From positions 1-39,594 of the forward strand of contig CANFSB010000013.1 in assembly GCA_947449495.1 (NCBI GenBank): 39,594 bases of DNA, given 5' to 3'. This stretch comes from Pseudomonadota bacterium. Its GTDB lineage: Bacteria; Pseudomonadota; Gammaproteobacteria; Steroidobacterales; Steroidobacteraceae. Within the stretch, counting starts at the first letter, position 1. Every line of letters begins with the position of its first letter. The translations under genes were made by a program, and so were the position numbers. The notes below the pieces were generated by a model that was not told where the DNA came from, searched no databases, and saw only the letters and a list, made by a program, of their open reading frames with translations. This document shows, in pieces, positions 1 through 38,520 of this stretch.

Positions 1-1101
1 AATGGCGTGTACGTGGGCAAGCCTGCGATCCGCAAATATCTCTACAGCTTAAGTGGCGGTAAGCCGGGTCTGCTCAAGGGCCAACTCAACAATCACTTCC
101 TGCGTTCACCGGTCATCACGCTATCGGCCGACGGCATGCAGGCCAAAGCTCGCTGGCACGACACCATCCAGGATGGCATCTACGGACAATCTGCCAACTG
201 GGGTGCAGGCGTATATGAAAACGACTATGTGAAACAAGGTGGCCTGTGGAAGATTGCCGCCCTGCACTACTACGTGCGCTTTCATGCGCCCTATGAGGGC
301 GGCTGGACCCACGCCACCGCTGCCAGCACGCGCAGCTATGGCAAGTCGTCAGTTAAGCCAACTCGCGGACCCAGCGTGACCTATGAGCTGTGGCCCGCGA
401 CGTATACCGCGCCGATGCATTTTGATAACCCGGCGCGTTCCGACTACAAGCTGGTGCCAGCCGCTGCAGCCCCGGCAGCGGACCAAAGCGCCAAGAAATC
501 GGTCGCGGAACTTGAGGCGCAGGTGCGTGCACTGGAACTCAAGATCGACAAGCTGCGCAGCTTTGATGAGGTGGAGAACCTCGAAAGCACCTACGGCTAC
601 TACGCCGACAAATCGATGCAGGACGCCATCTCGGCGCTGTTCACCGAAAACGCCTGGCTCGAGATCCTGGGCCGCGGCGTATTCCTCGGTCGAGACCGTG
701 TCTACGAATACATGCGGCGCCTGGGTGCACCGACTTACGGCACGCTGTTCAACCACATGCAGATCCAGCCTGTGATCAACATCACCCCGGACGGCAATAC
801 GGCCACCATCCGCTCCCGGCTGGTGGTGATGTATGGCCTGCTGGACCGCTCCGCACAATGGGGTGATGGCGTTTACGAAAACGTCTACGTGCGGGAAAAC
901 GGCATCTGGAAGTATCAGGTGCTCAACGGCTATCAGACTTTCTACACCGACTACGACAAGGGCTGGGGCAAGCACTCTGCGGGCATGTTCAGCCCGTTTG
1001 CCGGTTATCCGCCAGACATGCCCCAGTCGGTTAGCTATGACCCGTGGCCCGCACCGTTTATACCGCCCTTTAACTATCGCCACCCGGTGACCGGCAAATG
1101 A
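1..1101 (+). CDS. Tandem NTF2/SnoaL-like domain protein, 5' partial
   Basis: The reading frame is open from the first base, and its first visible residues (NGVYVGKPAIRKYL) align with the middle of a SnoaL-like domain in the next gene, so the gene starts left of the window. It shows the C-terminal half of one NTF2-fold domain (visible residues about 1-105) and one complete domain (about 185-325). They are joined by a Pro/Ala-rich linker and a short predicted coiled coil. The complete domain has YGYYxD and a His in FNHMQ, residues typical of the SnoaL_4/scytalone dehydratase-like group. The last domain has Asn where the preceding one has His (WKxxxxN versus WKxxxxH). It overlaps the next gene by ATGA, so the two are probably cotranslated. 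Substrate and reaction are unknown. Confidence 0.8.
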   Translation, partial: NGVYVGKPAIRKYLYSLSGGKPGLLKGQLNNHFLRSPVITLSADGMQAKARWHDTIQDGIYGQSANWGAGVYENDYVKQGGLWKIAALHYYVRFHAPYEGGWTHATAASTRSYGKSSVKPTRGPSVTYELWPATYTAPMHFDNPARSDYKLVPAAAAPAADQSAKKSVAELEAQVRALELKIDKLRSFDEVENLESTYGYYADKSMQDAISALFTENAWLEILGRGVFLGRDRVYEYMRRLGAPTYGTLFNHMQIQPVINITPDGNTATIRSRLVVMYGLLDRSAQWGDGVYENVYVRENGIWKYQVLNGYQTFYTDYDKGWGKHSAGMFSPFAGYPPDMPQSVSYDPWPAPFIPPFNYRHPVTGK

Positions 1102-3083
1102 AAACACTTGTGATGTTGTGCGCCACTGCCCTGGCCTGCGCGGCCACACCAGCGGCTCGGGCCGCCACCGACAACAGCGCGGTGGCTACGCAGGTGGCGC
1201 AACTAGAGCTGCGCAAAACGCGTCTTGAAGACCAGAACGCCATCGCACGCCTGCAACGCAGCTATGGCTACTACCTGGATCAGGGCAAATGGGACGAAGC
1301 AGCAGATCTGTTCAGCGACAGCGGCTCCATCGAACTGGGCCAGGACGGCGTATTCCAAGGTAAGGGCCGCGTGCGCCAATACCTGCGTGCGCTGGGCCAC
1401 GGCAAACAAGGCCTAGCAGCGGGTCAGCTCAACGAACATCTGCAGCTGATGCCCGTAATCACCTTGGCCGCGGACGGCCGCAGTGCACGGGGCACTTGGC
1501 GCGATGTGATGCTGGTGGGTGAACTGGGCAAGAACGCGTACTGGGGCGAAGGCCCGTTTGAAAACGAATACGTCAAAGAGAACGGCGTTTGGAAGATCAG
1601 TCGGGTGCACTGGTTTCAAACGCTGTTCGTGCCCTATGAGGGCGGCTGGGCCAAACACAGTGACGTGAACGACGGGCACTTCGCACCGGCCGGTTTGACG
1701 CCGGATGCGCCACCGTCGGTCAACTACCGCAGTTGGCCCTATGCGTTTACGCCTCCCTTCCACTTTCGCGGTGCGTCAGCGATCGCAACGCCGTCCGCTT
1801 CGCCAGCAGCCGTCACAGCGCTTCAGGCGCTGCCTGTCGCACGTCTGGCACAACGCGCCGCCCAACTGGCTGCCGACGTACAGCGTCTGGCGGACCAGCG
1901 AGCCATAGAAGACCTGCAGCGTATCTACGGTTTTTATATCGACAAGAGCCAGTGGTCACAGGCTGCAGCACTGTTCAGCGATGACGCATCGCTGCGCATA
2001 GAGGGTCTGGGGCAGTGGCAAGGCAAGGAACGCGTGCAGGCCTACTTGGCATCGTTGGGCCCGGAAGGTGTGCTTGAAAACCGCCTGCACGACAACATGC
2101 AGCTGCAACCGGTGGTGCACGTGTCTGCCGACGGCCGCAGCGCACGCGGCCGCTGGCGGCATTTTTCGCAATTGGCCAAGGCCGGCGAGTTTGCCGAGTG
2201 GGGCACGGGCACTTACGAGAATGAGTACATCAAGGACAACGGCGTCTGGAAGATCCGGCGTCTGCACCTGTACCCGACGATGTTCACGCCTTATGAACAA
2301 GGCTGGGGAAAAGTCTGGGAAGCACGTTCGCGCTATGCACCCACAATCGCGCCCGACACAGCGTTGAAACCACAGAGCGAGTTCGCCGGCCCCGGCATAC
2401 CGGCACCCTTTCATTACGAACACCCGGTGCGTGGCACTAAACCCTCGCCGGCTAAGGCCACCGCCCGTGTGGATGCACAGGCACTGGCCGGCCAGCTGGC
2501 CGGCATTGAACAGCAACTGGTCCATATCGAAGACGCAGTCCAAATTGAAAACCTGCAGATGCGCTATGGCTATTACCTGGCCACGCTGTTGTGGGACGAC
2601 TTGGCGGCGCTGTTTGATGACAACGGCACGATCGAGATCGCCATGCGCGGCGTGTATGCAGGCCGCGCAGCAGTGCGCCGCAACCTGAATCTGTATGGTC
2701 AGGCTGGACTAGACGACGGCGTGCTGCACAACCACATGCAATATCAGCCGGTCATCAGCGTTGCAGCAGATGGCCAAAGTGCCAAGCTGCGTTCACGCGC
2801 GCTGAGCATGATGGGCAACGCTGGCAAGAGCGGCCAATGGATGGGCGGCACTTACGAGAATGAGTTCATCAAGGTCGATGGCGTGTGGAAGTTCCGCAAA
2901 GACCAGCAGGTCAACACCTACTTTGCGCCCTATGACGTGGGCTGGAAGGAACTCAAGCTGCGACCGCCACCGGGCATCACCGATTCAAACCCGCCGGATC
3001 GGCCGCCGAGCTTCGCCTTTGATATGTACCCCAAAGGCTTTCTGACGCCCTATCACTACGTCAATCCGGTGACAGGCAAATAG
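1098..3083 (+). CDS. Secreted triple NTF2/SnoaL-like domain protein
   Basis: This 661-residue protein begins with a typical Sec signal peptide (MKTLVMLCATALACAATPAARA). Three homologous NTF2/SnoaL_4-like domains follow at about 45-190, 265-410 and 480-620. Each is preceded by a 15-20 residue heptad-like helix and followed by a Pro/aromatic tail such as PFHYEHPVRG. Domains 1 and 2 keep YG(Y/F)YxD, a His near the middle (H114, H331) and a second His six residues after a conserved Trp (H171, H390). Domain 3 keeps the Tyr pair and H544 or its neighbour H546 but has Ala for the Asp and Gln603 for the second His. NTF2-like enzymes include dehydratases, isomerases and cyclases. Here only fold and location can be stated. 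It is translationally coupled to the preceding, related gene. Confidence 0.85.
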   Translation: MKTLVMLCATALACAATPAARAATDNSAVATQVAQLELRKTRLEDQNAIARLQRSYGYYLDQGKWDEAADLFSDSGSIELGQDGVFQGKGRVRQYLRALGHGKQGLAAGQLNEHLQLMPVITLAADGRSARGTWRDVMLVGELGKNAYWGEGPFENEYVKENGVWKISRVHWFQTLFVPYEGGWAKHSDVNDGHFAPAGLTPDAPPSVNYRSWPYAFTPPFHFRGASAIATPSASPAAVTALQALPVARLAQRAAQLAADVQRLADQRAIEDLQRIYGFYIDKSQWSQAAALFSDDASLRIEGLGQWQGKERVQAYLASLGPEGVLENRLHDNMQLQPVVHVSADGRSARGRWRHFSQLAKAGEFAEWGTGTYENEYIKDNGVWKIRRLHLYPTMFTPYEQGWGKVWEARSRYAPTIAPDTALKPQSEFAGPGIPAPFHYEHPVRGTKPSPAKATARVDAQALAGQLAGIEQQLVHIEDAVQIENLQMRYGYYLATLLWDDLAALFDDNGTIEIAMRGVYAGRAAVRRNLNLYGQAGLDDGVLHNHMQYQPVISVAADGQSAKLRSRALSMMGNAGKSGQWMGGTYENEFIKVDGVWKFRKDQQVNTYFAPYDVGWKELKLRPPPGITDSNPPDRPPSFAFDMYPKGFLTPYHYVNPVTGK

Positions 3084-3092
3084 ACCTAAGGG

Positions 3093-4313
3093 TCAGGCCA
3101 ACTGGCTGTCGACCCAAACCACCCAATGCTGCACTGGCACGGCTGACCCGGCGGCCAGTTGCAGCATGCAACCTAGGTTGGCAGACAGAATGATCTGCGG
3201 CTCGGCGGCCGTGAGAGCAGCCTGTTTGCGTTGACGCAGCTGAGTCGATATCTGCGGCTGCAGCAGCGTATAGGTGCCGGCAGCCCCACAACATAGCTGC
3301 GCATCACTCGCCGCAAGCAGCGTGGCACCCAACGCCGACAGCAATCCTTCTACGCTGCCGCGAATTCGCTGCGCGTGTTGCAAGCTGCACGGCGCCTGAA
3401 ACACTACACGTGTCACCACTGATGTTCGCAGTAACGGCCGTAACTGTGACGCCAGCGGTGCCACCACTTCTGACAGATCACGCACCAGACTAACCACGCG
3501 CGCAGCGCGTGCGGCATACACCTCGTCATGCTGTAACAGCACTGCGTAATCGCGCAGCATCGAACCGCAACCCGAGGTATTGGCCACGATCGCCTCGGCA
3601 CCGGCATCAATGGCAGGCCACCAGGCATCGATGTTGCGTCGTGCTGCATCACGTGCCTGCTCCGTAGCATCCAGATGCTGGTGTATCGCCCCACAACAGC
3701 CTGCACCAGCGGCAATTCGCACAGTGATGCCCAGCGCATCCAGCACACGTGCTGTAGCGGCGTTAATCTGCGGGGCCAAAGCCGGCTGTACGCAACCGGC
3801 CAACAACAACACGCTGCGCGTGTGCATGCGCTGTGGCATTGCACCGGCAGTCACACGCACCGGCAAATGAGTTTGCAATGCCGCTGGCAACAGCGGCCGC
3901 AGCAAACGACCCAATGCAGCAGCAGGCGCGAACAATGGGCCGGTCAATGCACCGGCCAAGCCACGACGTAACAGCCGTTGCAACCACGGCCGCGGCTGGC
4001 TTTTGACGAGCAGTCCGCGGCCCAACTCAACCAATCGGCCGTATTGCACACCAGAGGGACAGGCGGTCTCACAGGCGCGACACGTCAGGCAGCGATCCAG
4101 ATGCAACTGCGTCTGCGCACTGGTGCCCTCGCCTTCCAGAAGCTGCTTAATGAGATGAATGCGACCTCGCGGACTGTCACGTTCATCGCCCAGCACCTGA
4201 TAGGTGGGGCACGTGGCTTGGCAAAACCCGCAATGCACACAAGCCCGGATCAGCGCAGCCGCCTCGCGCGCTTCGACGTTATCTTGTAGTGCTGGGCTGA
4301 GTGTTGTTTGCAT
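3093..4313 (-). CDS. glcF: Glycolate oxidase iron-sulfur subunit
   Basis: This 406-residue protein has two ferredoxin-type 4Fe-4S motifs near the N terminus (C25xxC28xxC31xxxC35 and C75xxC78xxC81xxxC85). Two cysteine-rich CCG domains follow (GCCGAIHQHL and CCGAAGTY). This is the GlcF layout and the length matches the family. GlcF passes electrons from the FAD subunits GlcD/GlcE towards the respiratory chain at the inner membrane during oxidation of glycolate to glyoxylate. It is the last gene of a permease-glcD-glcE-glcF operon, separated from glcE by only 6 bp. Its stop lies 9 bp from the stop of the convergent NTF2-like gene, with no clear terminator between them. Confidence 0.95.
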   Translation of the reverse strand: MQTTLSPALQDNVEAREAAALIRACVHCGFCQATCPTYQVLGDERDSPRGRIHLIKQLLEGEGTSAQTQLHLDRCLTCRACETACPSGVQYGRLVELGRGLLVKSQPRPWLQRLLRRGLAGALTGPLFAPAAALGRLLRPLLPAALQTHLPVRVTAGAMPQRMHTRSVLLLAGCVQPALAPQINAATARVLDALGITVRIAAGAGCCGAIHQHLDATEQARDAARRNIDAWWPAIDAGAEAIVANTSGCGSMLRDYAVLLQHDEVYAARAARVVSLVRDLSEVVAPLASQLRPLLRTSVVTRVVFQAPCSLQHAQRIRGSVEGLLSALGATLLAASDAQLCCGAAGTYTLLQPQISTQLRQRKQAALTAAEPQIILSANLGCMLQLAAGSAVPVQHWVVWVDSQLA

Positions 4314-4319
4314 GCTGCG

Positions 4320-5396
4320 TCACAGACCCTGAATCAGGCGACCGGGATTAAAAATGCCGGCGGGATCAAATTCTGCCTTGAGACCGCGATGCACACGCAG
4401 CACCGCAGACGACACCGGCGTAAACACTCCCGCGCTGCGATCGCCGCCGCGAAACAGCGTGGCATGTCCGCCCAACTGGTTCGCACGTGCCCGCAGCTGT
4501 GCTGCCGGAAGGTCGCTGCGCAACCAGCGCTGCGCACCACCCCACTCGATGCACTGCCACGCATCGAAGCCTAAAGCTGCTGCTGTCGAAGGCACCGAGA
4601 CACGCCACAGCGGCAGATCACCGGCAAAGAAGTGAGATGACTGTTCGCGCAGCGCAGTCCAGAACTGTGCGGCATTAGCAGCAGGCAGCGGCTGCCCGCC
4701 CAAGGTCCCAGCGGCCTCTCTCACTGCCGCTTCGGCTCCGGCCAGTCGCACGCTGAGCAAACCGTTGTGCCAATGTGTGGCCGACAGCGGTAAAGGCTGA
4801 CCACCCCACTGGTTGCAGCGCAACAAGGCCGTCGTTTCATCACAGTCTTGTTGCAGAGTGAGTTCGGCGCGCGGGCGAGGCAGCACCTTGAGTGACACTT
4901 CGAGGATCACTCCCAAAATGCCCAATGAGCCCGCCAACAGCCGCGACACATCGTAGCCGGCCACGTTCTTGATGACGGTCCCACCAAAGCGCAGCTGACG
5001 TGCACGACCATCCAGCAACCGCGTGCCCAACACAAAATCGCGCACCGCACCTTGAGTAGTACCTGCCGAGGCGCGTCGCGGCCCGGCGAGCCCGGCAGCC
5101 ACACAGCCACCCACCGTGGCAGCAGGCCCAAAGTGCGGCGGCTCAAAGGCCAGCATCTGGTCTTGTTCAGACAACATTGTCTCAAGCAGGGCCAAGGGTG
5201 TTCCAGCGCGTGCCGTGATAACCAGTTCGCTGGGGTCGTAGTCGACGATGCCCTGCCAATGCCGTACATCAAGCACCTGACCCTGTGGCAGGTTGCCGTA
5301 AAAATCTTTGCTGCCACTTCCCCGGATGCACAGCGGCGTATGGCTAGCGACCGCGGCCTGTACCTGATCCACCAGCGACTGCAATGCCGTGTCCAT
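4320..5396 (-). CDS. glcE: Glycolate oxidase FAD-binding subunit GlcE
   Basis: The 358-residue protein has an FAD_binding_4 (PCMH-type) domain with IRGSGSKDFYG near residue 25, then PAATVGGCVAAGLAGPRR and the segment VIKNVAGYDVSRLLAGSLG typical of GlcE. It is shorter than GlcD because it lacks the full C-terminal FAD oxidase domain. It forms the glycolate dehydrogenase complex with GlcD and GlcF. The start ATG overlaps the glcD stop by one base (TAATG), so translation is coupled. The C-terminal FNPGRL is a short echo of the GlcD ending. Confidence 0.93.
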   Translation of the reverse strand: MDTALQSLVDQVQAAVASHTPLCIRGSGSKDFYGNLPQGQVLDVRHWQGIVDYDPSELVITARAGTPLALLETMLSEQDQMLAFEPPHFGPAATVGGCVAAGLAGPRRASAGTTQGAVRDFVLGTRLLDGRARQLRFGGTVIKNVAGYDVSRLLAGSLGILGVILEVSLKVLPRPRAELTLQQDCDETTALLRCNQWGGQPLPLSATHWHNGLLSVRLAGAEAAVREAAGTLGGQPLPAANAAQFWTALREQSSHFFAGDLPLWRVSVPSTAAALGFDAWQCIEWGGAQRWLRSDLPAAQLRARANQLGGHATLFRGGDRSAGVFTPVSSAVLRVHRGLKAEFDPAGIFNPGRLIQGL

Positions 5397-6868
5397 TAGA
5401 AGCGCGGCAACTCAGGGAAAGCAACGCGACCGGCGCTGACACGCTGGCGACCGTATTCAGCGCAGCGGTGCAAGCTCGGCACAACCTTGCCTGGGTTGAG
5501 CGTACAGGCCGGATCAAAGGCCCGCTTCACACCCCGAAATGCCTCGAGAGAGTCAGCATCGAACTGCGAACACATCTGGTTGATCTTCTCCATACCCACA
5601 CCGTGTTCGCCGGTGATAGTGCCGCCCAAGCGCACGCTCTCTTCGAGGATCTCGGCGCCAAAGGCTTCGGCACGCGCGACAGAGTCGGGATCGCTGTCAT
5701 CGAACAACACCAGCGGATGCAGGTTGCCATCGCCGGCATGAAACACGTTGGGGCAGGCCAAACCAAAGCGCAGCTCCATCGCCGCAATCGCCTTGAGCAT
5801 GGTGCCGATGTGTTTGCGCGGAATAGTGCCATCGGTGCAGTAGTACGCCGGCGCGGCACGACCGGCTGCAGGAAAGGCATTCTTGCGCCCAGCCCAGAAT
5901 CGCAAACGTTCGGTTTCATCTGCAGAGACCTGCAAGCGTGTGGCACCTGCAGCACGCAACACGCTGCACATACGCTCAATTTCTTCTGCCACCTCGGCAG
6001 GCGTGCCGTCGGACTCGCACAACAAGACTGCAGCGGCATCCAGGTCGTAGCCAGCATTAGCAAAGGGCTCGACCAACCGTGAGGCAGCCTGGTCAAGCAT
6101 CTCTAGACCCGCGGGAATGATCCCTGCGGCAATCAACGCAGCCACTGCATCCCCGGCCTGCCCGACATCGGCAAAGCTAGCCATGATGCAGCGCGCCAAC
6201 TGCGGCTTGGGCACCAGCCGCACAGTGACCTCGGCAATGACCGCCAACATGCCCTCTGAACCGACCATCACTGCAAGCAGATCCAGTCCGGGCGCATCCA
6301 GTGCCAACCCGCCGAACTCAATGGGCGTGCCGTCCACCAGCCAGCCGCGCACGCGCATCACGTTGTGCAACGTCAGGCCGTACTTGAGGCAGTGCACACC
6401 ACCAGAGTTCTCGGCCACATTGCCGCCAATGGTGCAGGCAATCTGGCTGGAAGGATCTGGCGCGTAGTACAGGCCATATGGCGCTGCGGCATCAGACACC
6501 GCAAGGTTACGCACGCCCGGCTGCACCGTTGCCGTACGCGCCAGCGCGTCGACAGACAGCACACGATTAAAGCGCGCCATTGCCAGCAACACGCCCTGGG
6601 CATTGGGCATGGCACTGCCAGCAAGTCCGGTCCCTGCACCACGCGGCACCACGGGCACGCCGTAGGCATGACACAACTGCAGCACCTGCACGACTTGATC
6701 TTCAGTGTCGGGCAACACCACAGCCATCGGTCGCTGACGGATCAGCGTCAAGCCATCACACTCCCAAGGCTGGGTATCTTCTGGCTCAACCAACAACGCA
6801 CCCGCAGGCAAGACCGCTCGCAAGGCAGCGATGAGTTCTGGATGCTGGACCACGACGGCGTTGTGCAT
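5396..6868 (-). CDS. glcD: Glycolate oxidase catalytic FAD subunit GlcD
   Basis: The 490-residue protein has the PCMH FAD-binding domain (PRGAGTGLAGSAMPNAQGV near residue 75) and a C-terminal FAD-linked oxidase domain. That domain contains FHAGDGNLHP, GEHGVGMEK and the ending LNPGKVVP. This is GlcD, which oxidises glycolate (and often D-lactate) to the 2-oxo acid. The context (glcE and glcF directly downstream, a lactate/glycolate permease upstream) supports glycolate rather than D-lactate alone. The ribosome binding site AGG lies inside the end of the upstream permease gene, 9 bp before the ATG. Confidence 0.95.
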   Translation of the reverse strand: MHNAVVVQHPELIAALRAVLPAGALLVEPEDTQPWECDGLTLIRQRPMAVVLPDTEDQVVQVLQLCHAYGVPVVPRGAGTGLAGSAMPNAQGVLLAMARFNRVLSVDALARTATVQPGVRNLAVSDAAAPYGLYYAPDPSSQIACTIGGNVAENSGGVHCLKYGLTLHNVMRVRGWLVDGTPIEFGGLALDAPGLDLLAVMVGSEGMLAVIAEVTVRLVPKPQLARCIMASFADVGQAGDAVAALIAAGIIPAGLEMLDQAASRLVEPFANAGYDLDAAAVLLCESDGTPAEVAEEIERMCSVLRAAGATRLQVSADETERLRFWAGRKNAFPAAGRAAPAYYCTDGTIPRKHIGTMLKAIAAMELRFGLACPNVFHAGDGNLHPLVLFDDSDPDSVARAEAFGAEILEESVRLGGTITGEHGVGMEKINQMCSQFDADSLEAFRGVKRAFDPACTLNPGKVVPSLHRCAEYGRQRVSAGRVAFPELPRF

Positions 6869-6877
6869 CGTTGCAAC

Positions 6878-8512
6878 CTAGCCGGGAACCATCAGCGTGA
6901 ATGGCCACACATACGCCATCAGCAGCACAACCAGTCCCACCAGCGAGGCCAGTGCAATGCTGTGCACAAACACATAGCGAAGAATTACGCCCTCTTGGCC
7001 AAACCAGCGCGTAGCAGTCGAGGCCACCACAATGCTTTGCGCATCGATCATCTTGCCCATCACACCACCGGCACTGTTGGCACCAGCCATCAAGGTGGGC
7101 GATAAGTCTAATTGGCCGGCAGTGACTTTTTGCAGACCACCAAACAACACATTGGCAGCGGTATCAGAGCCGGTGACAGCCACACCAAGCCAGCCGAGCA
7201 AGGTACCGAAGAACGGATACATCACGCCGGTGGCTGCAAACGCCAAGCCCAACGTGGCGTCCACACCGGCATAGCGCGTCAAGTAACCCAGCGACAACAT
7301 CGCTGCAATAGTGAGCAGGCTGGGTGCGGTATTGCGCAGCGCACGACCATAGGTGGCCAACATGGCGCGCGGGCCCGCGCCCAGCAGCGTACCGGCAATC
7401 AGTGCCGAGACCAGAATGGCCGTACCGGTCATCGACAACAGATTGAAGTTGTATAGCGCGCGCTCCACCTCTGGCGCTGCCACCACCGGCGGAACGCGCT
7501 GCACCAGCTGATCAAGCCCGGGAAACGGCATCACGATGCGAAACACACCATCGAGCCAGGCCTTGGTAGCAGGCAAGCCCCACACAAAGACGACCAGCAT
7601 CAGCACCACCCACGGTGCCCAAGCGCGACGCAGCGCAGCGGCAGACGGCTTGGCAAACGCCTCTGCTGGTGCTTGATCTTCTGCGATCCGCATAACCTGC
7701 GCGGGCTTCCAGACACGGAGAAACAGAACCAGCACTAGCATCGACACCAGTGCCGCACCAATAGCAGTGAGCCACGGACCATGCAAATTGCTGATGAGAA
7801 GCTGCGCACCGCCGAACGACACACCGGTAACAAGCAGTGCGGGCCAGATTTGGAACGTACGACGCCAGCCGCAATAAGCCACCATCAACCAAAACGGCAC
7901 CAGCAACGCAAACGGCGTCATCATGCGGCCCACCAGTGCCGACAGATCTGCCAGCGGCAGATCTGTAACGCCAGCCAACGTGACCAGCGGTGTGCCCAAG
8001 GCACCAAAAGCCACCGGGGCAGTATTGGCAATCAACGACAGGCCCGCCGCCTGCAGACGGGTGAAGCCCAAGCCGATGAGCATGGCGCCAGTCACCGCTA
8101 CCGGCGTACCAAAGCCGGCACAGCCCTCAAAGAACGCGCCAAAACAGAACGCCACCAACAACAACTGCAAACGGCTGTCATCGGTGATGCCAGCGATCGA
8201 GTCGCGCAGAATTGCAAACTGCCCGCGCTCTTCGGTGAGCTGATACAGGAAGATGATGTTGAGCACGATCCAGCCGATGGGCATCAGACCGTAGGCGGCG
8301 CCGAAGCCTGCTGCACCCAACGCCTGACCGATAGGCATGCCAAAGCCACCAACCGCCACGGCAAGCGCTGCCAATAAACCGGCGATCGCAGCTACTGGTG
8401 CGCGCCAGCGCAGTACCGCCAAGCCACCCAACAGCACCACCAGCGGAATCACCGCCATCAGCGTGGACACCCACGCCGCTCCCATCGGGTTGTAATCCTG
8501 CGACCAAAGCAT
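6878..8512 (-). CDS. L-lactate/glycolate permease (LctP family)
   Basis: The 544-residue protein is very hydrophobic, with a dozen or more predicted membrane segments. It has the LctP signatures FGAFFEGCAGFGTPVAV, ANTAPVAFGALGTP and GSDTAANVLFGGLQ. Members (LldP, GlcA) are inner-membrane symporters for lactate and glycolate. As first gene of the glcDEF operon it is most likely the glycolate importer, functionally GlcA, though lactate transport cannot be excluded. AGGGAG lies 8 bp before the ATG. No GlcC-type regulator and no malate synthase gene are present in the window. Confidence 0.93.
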   Translation of the reverse strand: MLWSQDYNPMGAAWVSTLMAVIPLVVLLGGLAVLRWRAPVAAIAGLLAALAVAVGGFGMPIGQALGAAGFGAAYGLMPIGWIVLNIIFLYQLTEERGQFAILRDSIAGITDDSRLQLLLVAFCFGAFFEGCAGFGTPVAVTGAMLIGLGFTRLQAAGLSLIANTAPVAFGALGTPLVTLAGVTDLPLADLSALVGRMMTPFALLVPFWLMVAYCGWRRTFQIWPALLVTGVSFGGAQLLISNLHGPWLTAIGAALVSMLVLVLFLRVWKPAQVMRIAEDQAPAEAFAKPSAAALRRAWAPWVVLMLVVFVWGLPATKAWLDGVFRIVMPFPGLDQLVQRVPPVVAAPEVERALYNFNLLSMTGTAILVSALIAGTLLGAGPRAMLATYGRALRNTAPSLLTIAAMLSLGYLTRYAGVDATLGLAFAATGVMYPFFGTLLGWLGVAVTGSDTAANVLFGGLQKVTAGQLDLSPTLMAGANSAGGVMGKMIDAQSIVVASTATRWFGQEGVILRYVFVHSIALASLVGLVVLLMAYVWPFTLMVPG

Positions 8513-35833: not shown

Positions 35834-36292
35834 ATGACCACGCTAGACGTCAACGGCAAGAAGCTTGAGACCGATGCCACCGATGACACCCCCTTGCTGT
35901 GGGTGCTTCGCGACAGCCTGAACCTCACGGGCACCAAATTCGGTTGCGGTATGGCGCAGTGCGGCGCCTGCACCGTGCACGTCGATGGCGTAGCCACGCG
36001 CAGCTGCGTGCTGCCGCTGTCGGCTGTCGCCGGCAAGAAGATCACCACCATCGAAAACATCGGTGCAGAGAAGGTCGGCAAGGCCGTGCAAGACGCCTGG
36101 ATTGCAGAGAACGTCGCCCAGTGCGGCTACTGCCAGTCCGGCCAGATCATGAGCGCCACTGCCCTGCTGTCTCAAAACAGCAAGCCCACCGATGCAGACA
36201 TCGATGCGGCCATGACCGGCAACATCTGCCGCTGCGCCACCTACGTTCGCATCCGCGCCGCCATCAAGCGCGCCTCTGCGGCCCTGGCCTGA
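35834..36292 (+). CDS. iorA: Isoquinoline 1-oxidoreductase-type 2Fe-2S subunit
   Basis: The 152-residue protein has a plant-ferredoxin-type cluster site (C38, C43, C46, C58 in [13 protein letters not shown] and RSCVL) and a second site (C97, C100, C132, C134 in QCGYCQSGQ and ICRCATY). This is the small subunit of the two-subunit molybdenum hydroxylases that lack a separate FAD subunit. GAGGA lies 6 bp before the ATG. It lacks its own signal and would be carried out with the Tat-targeted large subunit. Lys codons are mostly AAG, a bias shared with iorB. Confidence 0.93.
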
Positions 36293-36303
36293 AGGAACAG
36301 CAC

Positions 36304-38520
36304 ATGAACGACACTACGCAGATCAGCATCGTCAAAACTGACGCACTGCCCGACGCCACCCGCCGCACGCTGCTCAAGACCAGCGCCGGCCTCAGCTTGG
36401 CCGTCATGACCGGCCCGCTGCTCACCGCCTGCGCGGGCAACAACTTCAAGCCCACCGGCGCACAGTTTGTCTCGGGCAACTTCCTGCGCCTGGGCGATGA
36501 CGGCATCGTCACCGTCATCTGCCGCAACGCAGAGATCGGCCAAGGCGTTTTCACCGGTATCGCCACCATCATTGCCGAAGAGCTTGATGCCGACTGGAGC
36601 AAGGTTGTGGTCGAGGCTGCTCCGGCAGACCCCACCCGCTATGCCAACCCGGGCTTTGGCATGCAGGGCACCGGCGGCAGCAACTCCATTGCCAGCAGCT
36701 ACGAAGAAATGCGCAAGGTCGGTGCCACCGCTCGCGCCATGCTGGTCGCAGCTGCTGCAGCCAAGTGGAAGGTTGCTGCAGACAGCATCAGCGTCAGCAA
36801 CGGCGTGGTCAGCAGCGGCAGCAACAAAGCAGGCTTTGGCGAACTGGTGGCCGATGCCGCCAAGCTCGAAGTGCCCGCCAACGTCACGCTCAAGGATCCG
36901 GCCAAGTTCACGCTGATCGGCAAGGCCGACCTCTCGCGCGTGGATTCCAAGGCCAAGTCCACTGCCGGCGTCACCTACACACAAGACGTCAAGCTGCCGG
37001 ACATGCTGGTCGCTGTGGTCATCGGGCCGCCGCGTTTTGGCAGCACCCTTAAGTCATTCGATGCCGATGCCGCCAAGGCAATGCCTGGCGTCAGCGATGT
37101 GGTGAAGTTCAAGACCTCGGTGCGCGAAGGCGTGGCCGTATTGGCCAAGGACTACTGGACTGCCAAGAAGGCTCGCGAAGCCGTCAAGGTTGTCTGGGAC
37201 GACAGCAAGGCCGAGAAGCGCAGCAGCGCGCAGATCATGGCCGCCTACAAGGTACTGGCCACCAAGCCTGGTGACGAAGTCTTCAAGGCTGGCAATGCCC
37301 CCAAGGCTCTGGCAGCAGCCACGACGCAGTTTGAAGCCACGTACGAGTTCCCCTATCTGTCGCATGCGCCGATGGAGCCGCTCAACTGCGTTGCACAGGT
37401 CACTGAGGCCGGTTGCGAAATGTGGTTCGGCGCTCAGTTGCAGACCATCGACCAGGCCATGGTGGCCGGTGCGTTGGGCATCAAGCCCGAGCAGGTCAAG
37501 ATCAACACACTGTATGCCGGTGGCAGCTTCGGCCGTCGCTCCAACCCGATGGCCGACTTCACTCAAGAAGCTGCAGTCATCGCCAAGGTCGGCGGCAATG
37601 GCAAGCCGGTCAAGATGATCTGGTCGCGTGAAGACGACGTGCACGGCGGCTTCTACCGCCCCATGTTCCTGCACAGCATCAAGGCCGGTGTGGACGCACA
37701 GGGCAACATCACCGGCTGGCAACAGCGCGTCGTGGGTCAGTCACTGCTGGCCGGTACGCCGATGGCCGCCATGATGGGCAAGAGCAAGATTGACCCGCTG
37801 TCGGTCGAAGGCACGGGCGCCAACTTCCCCTATGCCATCGCCAACCGCATGGTCGACCTGCACTCGCCCACCTCACCGGTGACCGTGCAGTGGTGGCGTT
37901 CGGTGGGTTCCACCCACACCGCCTATGCCATCGAGTGCTTCCTCGATGACATCGCCCGCGGCACCAAGCAGGACCCTGTCGAGCTGCGTCGCAAGTTGCT
38001 CGCCAACCAGCCGCACCATCTGGCTGCGCTCAACCTGGCCGTCGAGAAGGCAGGCTGGGGCAGCCCGCTGCCGGCCGGTCGTGCTCGCGGCGTGGCCGTA
38101 CACGAGTGCTTCGGCAGCATTGCCGCGCACGTCGTAGAGGTGTCACAGGCAGCCGATGGCAGCTTCAAGGTAGAGCGTGTGGTCAGCGGCATCAGCTGCG
38201 GTCGCGCCATCAACCCGCAGATCGTGGCCATGCAGGTCGAGTCGTCCATCGGCTTGGGTCTAGGTGCTGCCATCAGCGGCGCCGTCACGCTCAAGGACGG
38301 TGTCGTCGAGCAGTCCAACTTCCACGACTATCAGGTGCTGCGCATGCACCAGATGCCGTCGGTTGAAGTGCACATCGTGCCGTCAGACGCCAAGCCCACC
38401 GGCATCGGTGAGCCGGGTCTGCCGCCCATCGCACCGGCTGTGGCCAACGCCATCGCTGTGCTCACGGGCAAGCCCACGCATGTGCTGCCGTTCAGCCAGT
38501 CGGGCGTGAAGTTCGCCTGA
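36304..38520 (+). CDS. iorB: Isoquinoline 1-oxidoreductase-type molybdopterin subunit
   Basis: The ATG at 36304 has AAGGA 9 bp upstream; the protein is 738 residues. The N terminus has a Tat motif (TRRTLLK, R20/R21) and a lipobox-like LLTAC with C42, suggesting a membrane-anchored periplasmic lipoprotein. Aldehyde oxidase/xanthine dehydrogenase-type Mo-binding motifs follow ([54 protein letters not shown]). The catalytic Glu is in GEPGLPP (E703). The family hydroxylates N-heterocycles or oxidises aldehydes; iorAB is named by similarity only. Codon use is strongly biased to C- and G-ending codons, suggesting high expression. A strong terminator follows. Confidence 0.92.

Follow-up and report, generated by a model that had tools for sequence, protein, structure and literature searches.

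LdpA-like SnoaL_4 domains in sets of three with unevenly retained putative active sites at a Steroidobacteraceae locus

Two sets of three SnoaL_4 domains, each domain most similar to the lyase LdpA, are encoded at the start of contig CANFSB010000013.1 (C13) of the Steroidobacteraceae genome GCA_947449495.1, and the two sets differ in which domains retain a putative catalytic Asp-His pair. We consider it probable that these sets, S+A and B after their genes, are LdpA-like units working as uneven three-part assemblies, a reading in which we infer the trimer geometry, catalysis, substrate and export. The fold and family are known; what appears to be new is the fixed number of three slots, each filled by an LdpA-like lyase domain, with putative active sites that are unevenly retained, and the open-access literature that we searched contained neither a paper describing tandem or three-domain SnoaL/NTF2 arrays nor one linking lignostilbene with such SnoaL arrays. 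The window is the whole stretch of DNA analysed (39,594 nt), and coordinates refer to it unless another locus is named.

Genes and domains of the array locus

The window opens with 149 bases that also form the end of contig C32, an exact overlap, and C32 supplies the start of protein A together with a one-domain gene, S. This join is confirmed by a same-genus genome (G021), in which a single contig (L073) carries S, A and B in the same order. The complete locus consists of S with one domain, A with two and B with three. A preliminary description, made from the window, had proposed at least five related NTF2-fold domains laid head to tail in two coupled genes and had looked to the sequence on the left for the full count. 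The array proved real, with SnoaL_4 domains in both A and B, and larger than the window shows, with six domains in three genes forming two sets of three.

Gene S (248 aa; L007:8819-9565, contig C32) ends 10 bases upstream of A, whose ATG is at L007:9576. Protein A is 458 aa long and its 3' part occupies 1..1101 (+) of the window, encoding residues 93-458 (the last 366) with the stop codon at 1099-1101. The window edge cuts domain A1 (1..306, +), which fills slot 2 of the S+A set; slot 3 of this set is domain A2 (526..966, +). Protein B (661 aa; 1098..3083, +) has three SnoaL_4 domains fused in one chain: B1 in slot 1 (1197..1649, +), B2 in slot 2 (1860..2306, +) and B3 in slot 3 (2499..2945, +). 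The start codon of B overlaps the stop codon of A as ATGA (1098..1101, +), an arrangement suggesting translational coupling, so that "coupled" was a fair word for the two genes. Pfam PF13577 (SnoaL_4) matched two stretches in the A part (126.7 bits, E = 6.8e-37) and three in B (266.6 bits, E = 3.5e-80) against a gathering cut-off of 24, and these E-values exclude a chance match. A third array in the same genome, C, has three fused domains (contig C21, L008:4923-7052); NCBIfam gave no family name for B or C. A putative N-terminal export signal of B (1098..1163, +) consists of a hydrophobic stretch with an A-x-A end, as judged by crude hydropathy and by eye for the motif, and S, A, B and C all have signal-like N-termini by the same crude hydropathy.

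Nearest known structures

The AlphaFold2 model of B, built from 16 sequences, had a mean pLDDT of 88.2 and a pTM of 0.89, which over three domains implies that their relative placement is confident. Its best fold match (Foldseek, VIA-align) was LdpA with Z of 16.4-17.5, the next best family reaching 10.4; LinA, a scytalone-dehydratase-like protein and BaiE followed with Z of about 9-10. LdpA, a diarylpropane gamma-formaldehyde lyase (PDB 8abt, 8abu, 8abv, 8abw; relative PcfL), was also the best sequence match among solved structures (8abt, E = 8.2e-29), and the domains of this genome are each 34-44% identical to it. LdpA has one domain, whereas A has two and B three, with three slots per unit, and the arrays further differ from it in their slot-specific residue losses and signal-like N-termini.

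AGDC1/PPP2 and LinA are described as trimers in which the trimer is the functional unit (PMC7862292, in excerpt), and BaiE likewise as a trimer (PMC13101464, in excerpt). LinA, scytalone dehydratase, BaiE and AGDC1/PPP2 are homotrimers of a single gene, whereas the positions here are distinct and unequal genes or domains; the likeness to AGDC1/PPP2 is drawn from published description. The polyether epoxide hydrolases Lsd19 and MonBI-MonBII are, from their PDB titles, also NTF2-like and occur as a tandem chain or a two-protein complex. They differ from the arrays in having two domains and other chemistry, and their fold match over two domains was weak (Z 8.4-8.6, rmsd 13.9-15.4). With two-domain Lsd19-type epoxide hydrolases among the fold matches, enzymes with NTF2 domains in tandem are already known, and the premise that NTF2-like enzymes are normally single-domain is not supported.

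The Asp-His dyad and the Trp+6 position

The catalytic pair is likely the Asp of YGYYxD and the His of LxxH, the latter corresponding to LdpA H97, by analogy with characterized relatives. PDB 8abu is the H97Q mutant of LdpA, and in the printed alignments the changed letter falls in the LxxH column. The H86-D40 dyad of AGDC1 is stated to be common to LinA, scytalone dehydratase and BaiE, and the AGDC1 mutations H86A and D40N abolished activity (PMC7862292, in excerpt); an Asp-His dyad is likewise present in part of the array domains. A match by sequence between the catalytic His and LinA H73 was considered; phmmer sets H73 two residues before the LxxH column, and LdpA H97 was used as the reference. 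Eleven active-site residues are mentioned for LdpA-type lyases (PMC11323797, in excerpt); the comparison here covers Asp and His97.

Both columns are filled as in LdpA in A1, A2, B1 and all three C domains (C1, C2, C3) by sequence alignment. In A1 the dyad His124 is encoded at 94-96 and Asp71 lies outside the window; A2 has Asp295 (607) and His344 (754), and B1 has Asp61 (1278) and His114 (1437). B2 keeps Asp282 (1941) and has Asn333 (2094) in place of the His, B3 has Ala495 (2580) in place of the Asp and keeps His546 (2733), and S has Ser76 and Thr128. The broken domain of the S+A set is therefore the first, S, and the last domain, A2, is complete. The loss of the Asp after YGYY in the last domain of B had been noted before and was found as described; the proposal that both last domains had undergone the same change is not supported, as A2 keeps both catalytic residues, and B2, previously counted among the active modules, lacks the catalytic His.

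The preliminary description had singled out the residue six positions after a conserved Trp (Trp+6), and its readings were accurate: His in A1 (His181, 265-267), B1 (His171, 1608) and B2 (His390, 2265), Asn in A2 (Asn401, 925) and Gln in B3 (Gln603, 2904). As a mark of active modules, however, this His was rejected because LdpA carries Asp at this position and LinA carries Asn, so that it is not conserved in active relatives. The residue is likewise Asp or Asn in four single-domain relatives (L088, L089) whose Asp-His pair is intact, and array C has His in its last domain and Asn in its first.

A constant total of three domains

Thirty-two loci of relatives were scanned with a profile made from the genome's own domains. 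All 36 untruncated sets (36/36) total three domains, 15 of them fused and 21 with a one-domain gene ahead of a two-domain gene (1+2); this count leaves out one set each in L027 and L032, cut at a contig end, and a lone weak single in L053. A census of 40 same-family genomes recovered array-like domains (E 1e-30 or better) in eight. Its 93 matches were clustered, with A1 counted twice because it is split over C32 and C13, and 24 of the 25 untruncated multi-domain clusters were sets of three: 16 fused, four as 1+2, one as 2+1 (L081) and three as 1+1+1 (L066, L068 and L077, the first gene of L077 running to the contig end). Contig ends truncated seven further clusters, and another seven matches were singles. 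The sole exception was an interior pair of single-domain array-like genes (G027:C388, L072:1734-3561), beside which no third domain was found on rechecking at a low threshold. Scan and census overlap, some family genomes being scan loci, and duplicates were kept out of the 57 sets analysed below. Directly before a three-domain set in two loci (L061:1837-2451, L066:2409-3053) lies a weak single SnoaL_4 gene (53-64 bits), possibly a fourth partner.

Five genomes in a phylum sample of 398 matched at E 1e-30, namely our own and four of another family of the phylum (f204), two of which carry 1+1+1 triplets and fused arrays (L098-L101). A search with the whole of B across the class at E 1e-60 returned only our own genome among 274; this threshold was too strict, as it missed the many same-family arrays recovered by the Pfam- and domain-profile searches. 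A total that stays at three while genes repeatedly fuse and split usually indicates parts that work as one complex.

Descent of slots and gene forms

All trees were quick trees without bootstraps. A tree of 111 domains from 37 sets, without those of L053 and L055, required two changes of slot label (1/2/3), which is the minimum. All 37 slot-3 domains fell on one side (SH-aLRT 90) and slot 1 was nested among slot 2; when the long-branched L053 and L055 sets were kept (117 domains), three changes were needed. For a further tree, 57 sets were concatenated (29 fused, 22 as 1+2, five as 1+1+1 and one as 2+1; without L100 and L101); gene form changes on it at least five times, and the seven sets of the S+A lineage and the 15 of the other 1+2 lineage represent separate splits. 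The slots descend separately, so the array had a single origin in this sample and was copied whole thereafter. Duplication of a whole array and the grouping of the last domains, both anticipated in the preliminary description, were thus borne out.

Dyad loss and constraint

Three complete dyads were present in seven of the 57 sets, one or two in 43 and none in seven. All seven sets without an intact dyad belong to the 1+2 lineage of L034-L054, which means that they use another chemistry or can do without the dyad. Slot 2 keeps the Asp in 38/39 sets and slot 3 the His in 39/39, and the last domain of the B lineage has a signature of its own, with Asp replaced by Ala in 27/39 sets and Gln at Trp+6 in 25/39. 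The place of the broken slot varies, being slot 1 or 2 in other lineages.

In each of the three lineages compared, slot 3 was the most strongly conserved. In the B lineage, where it has lost the Asp, its mean pairwise identity was the highest (0.689 vs 0.679 and 0.614), as it was in the other 1+2 lineage (0.759 vs 0.676 and 0.715); in the S+A lineage slot 1, which has lost the dyad, had 0.736 vs 0.689 and 0.745. By these identities the incomplete domains are not decaying.

Association with lignostilbene dioxygenases

LdpA turns a lignin-type dimer into a stilbene with release of formaldehyde, and LsdA/NOV2 then splits that stilbene (PMC11323797 and PMC12997858, in excerpt), and in Novosphingobium the LdpA product passes to LsdA/NOV2 (PMC11323797, in excerpt). 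As in that pathway, array-bearing genomes are linked to lignostilbene dioxygenases. The window contains a NOV2-type lignostilbene-alpha,beta-dioxygenase gene (PF03055; 14840..16312, -; 771 bits vs an NCBIfam cut-off of 650), one of seven PF03055 places in this genome. It lies ~12 kb from the array, outside the array operon and among unrelated genes, with purA upstream and an FAA-hydrolase-domain gene downstream. Array C adjoins a lignostilbene-dioxygenase-like gene in 5/5 sets of its clade and in a relative at a contig edge (L087), as do the single-domain LdpA-like genes in L088 and L089. Dioxygenase genes number 7-10 in each of the seven genomes with at least nine array domains (7/7) and 0-2 in the other 33 of 40, which include G027 with its two array domains. 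Fisher tests of array vs dioxygenase content gave p = 5e-8 with genomes and p = 1e-4 with genera as the unit; they are descriptive only, as the cut was chosen after seeing the data and the genomes are related. Across the 32-locus scan a dioxygenase was in reach at only four loci. The association is strong for array C and at genome level, but not for the S-A-B locus. The dioxygenase beside C has no signal-like N-terminus by crude hydropathy, unlike S, A, B and C, which would put enzyme and supposed partner in different compartments. From the analogy with LdpA and its relatives the reaction class is likely that of a lyase/dehydratase.

A proposed three-part lyase and its alternatives

The explanation that we favour builds on the observed domain count, slot-wise descent, residue losses, nearest structure and genomic dioxygenase association. 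S+A and B would be paralogous copies of one functional unit, in which three NTF2/SnoaL_4 domains of the LdpA kind form a cluster of three barrels, as LinA, BaiE and the AGDC1/PPP2 decarboxylases do from identical chains. In B the three domains would be tethered in one chain, and in S+A a one-domain chain would join a two-domain chain, giving tethered and split forms of a pseudo-heterotrimer with one to three active sites. The constant domain total and the pTM of the B model are at most consistent with such an assembly. Domains with both the Asp of YGYYxD and the His of LxxH would carry out acid-base lyase/dehydratase chemistry on an aromatic, lignin-type compound, and those short of one or both residues may be kept as structural or binding slots. 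This predicts two working sites in the S+A set (A1, A2) and one in B (B1), in enzymes predicted to be exported. Their products probably feed stilbene-type cleavage, because array-bearing genomes carry 7-10 lignostilbene dioxygenases. Against this explanation stand the two-domain set of G027, the 7/57 sets without a dyad, the few scan loci with a dioxygenase in reach, the apparent difference in compartment from the dioxygenase beside C and the single-domain state of LdpA. Tentatively, and with less confidence than in the assembly itself, we extend it to a family of NTF2 lyases that would require all three slots and would descend from an ancestral homotrimer turned into a hetero- or fused trimer; different lineages would have retired different active sites, the retired domains staying strongly constrained as binding or regulatory slots, and in some lineages catalytic residues may be shared across slots.

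The domains could instead act independently, as enzymes or binding domains joined to secure dosage or co-export, and need not form a three-part assembly. The seven sets that keep all three dyads are what independent enzymes would show, and tandem domains of the two-domain Lsd19-type epoxide hydrolases, found among the fold matches, have separate activities, each with its own site; we nevertheless regard this as unlikely, because independent modules would not hold to three through five form changes and the B model places its domains confidently relative to one another. Sites composed of residues from two slots, such as the slot-2 Asp and the slot-3 His, would free any one domain from needing a full dyad. 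The near-invariance of those two residues, even in sets without an intact single-domain dyad, fits such sites, but both residues lie within one chain's barrel in LdpA, LinA, BaiE and AGDC1, the pockets of the separate barrels in a trimer are expected to lie well apart and 50/57 sets have at least one complete dyad, so that we consider this improbable. We give equally little credence to the design first proposed, of active modules with an inert or binding last module. It captures the Asp to Ala and Gln signature of B3 and most B-lineage last domains, and the strong conservation of slot 3 agrees with a last module that is not decaying. As a general rule an always inert last domain is rejected, since A2 and C3 keep the dyad, S is first in its set yet broken, slot 1 or 2 is broken in other lineages and neither LdpA nor LinA has the Trp+6 His.

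If the three-part assembly is correct, these sets offer a natural series for a homo-oligomeric enzyme turning unequal, in which one fold and one total of three go with four arrangements of the genes and with anything from three complete dyads to none. They would also represent a large pool of candidate LdpA-like lyases in lignostilbene-dioxygenase-rich genomes, relevant to the breakdown of lignin-type dimers.

Neighbouring genes

Clustering of neighbouring genes over 34 sources revealed no common pathway; neighbours were lineage-specific. Recurrent neighbours were GSDH (13/34 sources), a GlcD-like oxidase (11/34, including our own locus) and amidohydrolases. In 13 loci of the 1+2 lineage (L034-L054) a GSDH-type sugar dehydrogenase gene lies after the array, on the opposite strand. 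Convergent with B in the window are the glycolate oxidase genes glcD-glcE-glcF and a gene of the lactate/glycolate permease family (3093-8512, -), and L024-L027 retain portions of this block next to their arrays. Locus L049 (CAMDML010000051.1) is titled Klebsiella pneumoniae; its array and neighbours resemble other Gammaproteobacteria MAGs and the title looks wrong. Further along the window, at 35899-38517 (+), an 873-aa molybdenum-hydroxylase-like protein has family matches only from residue 340 on.
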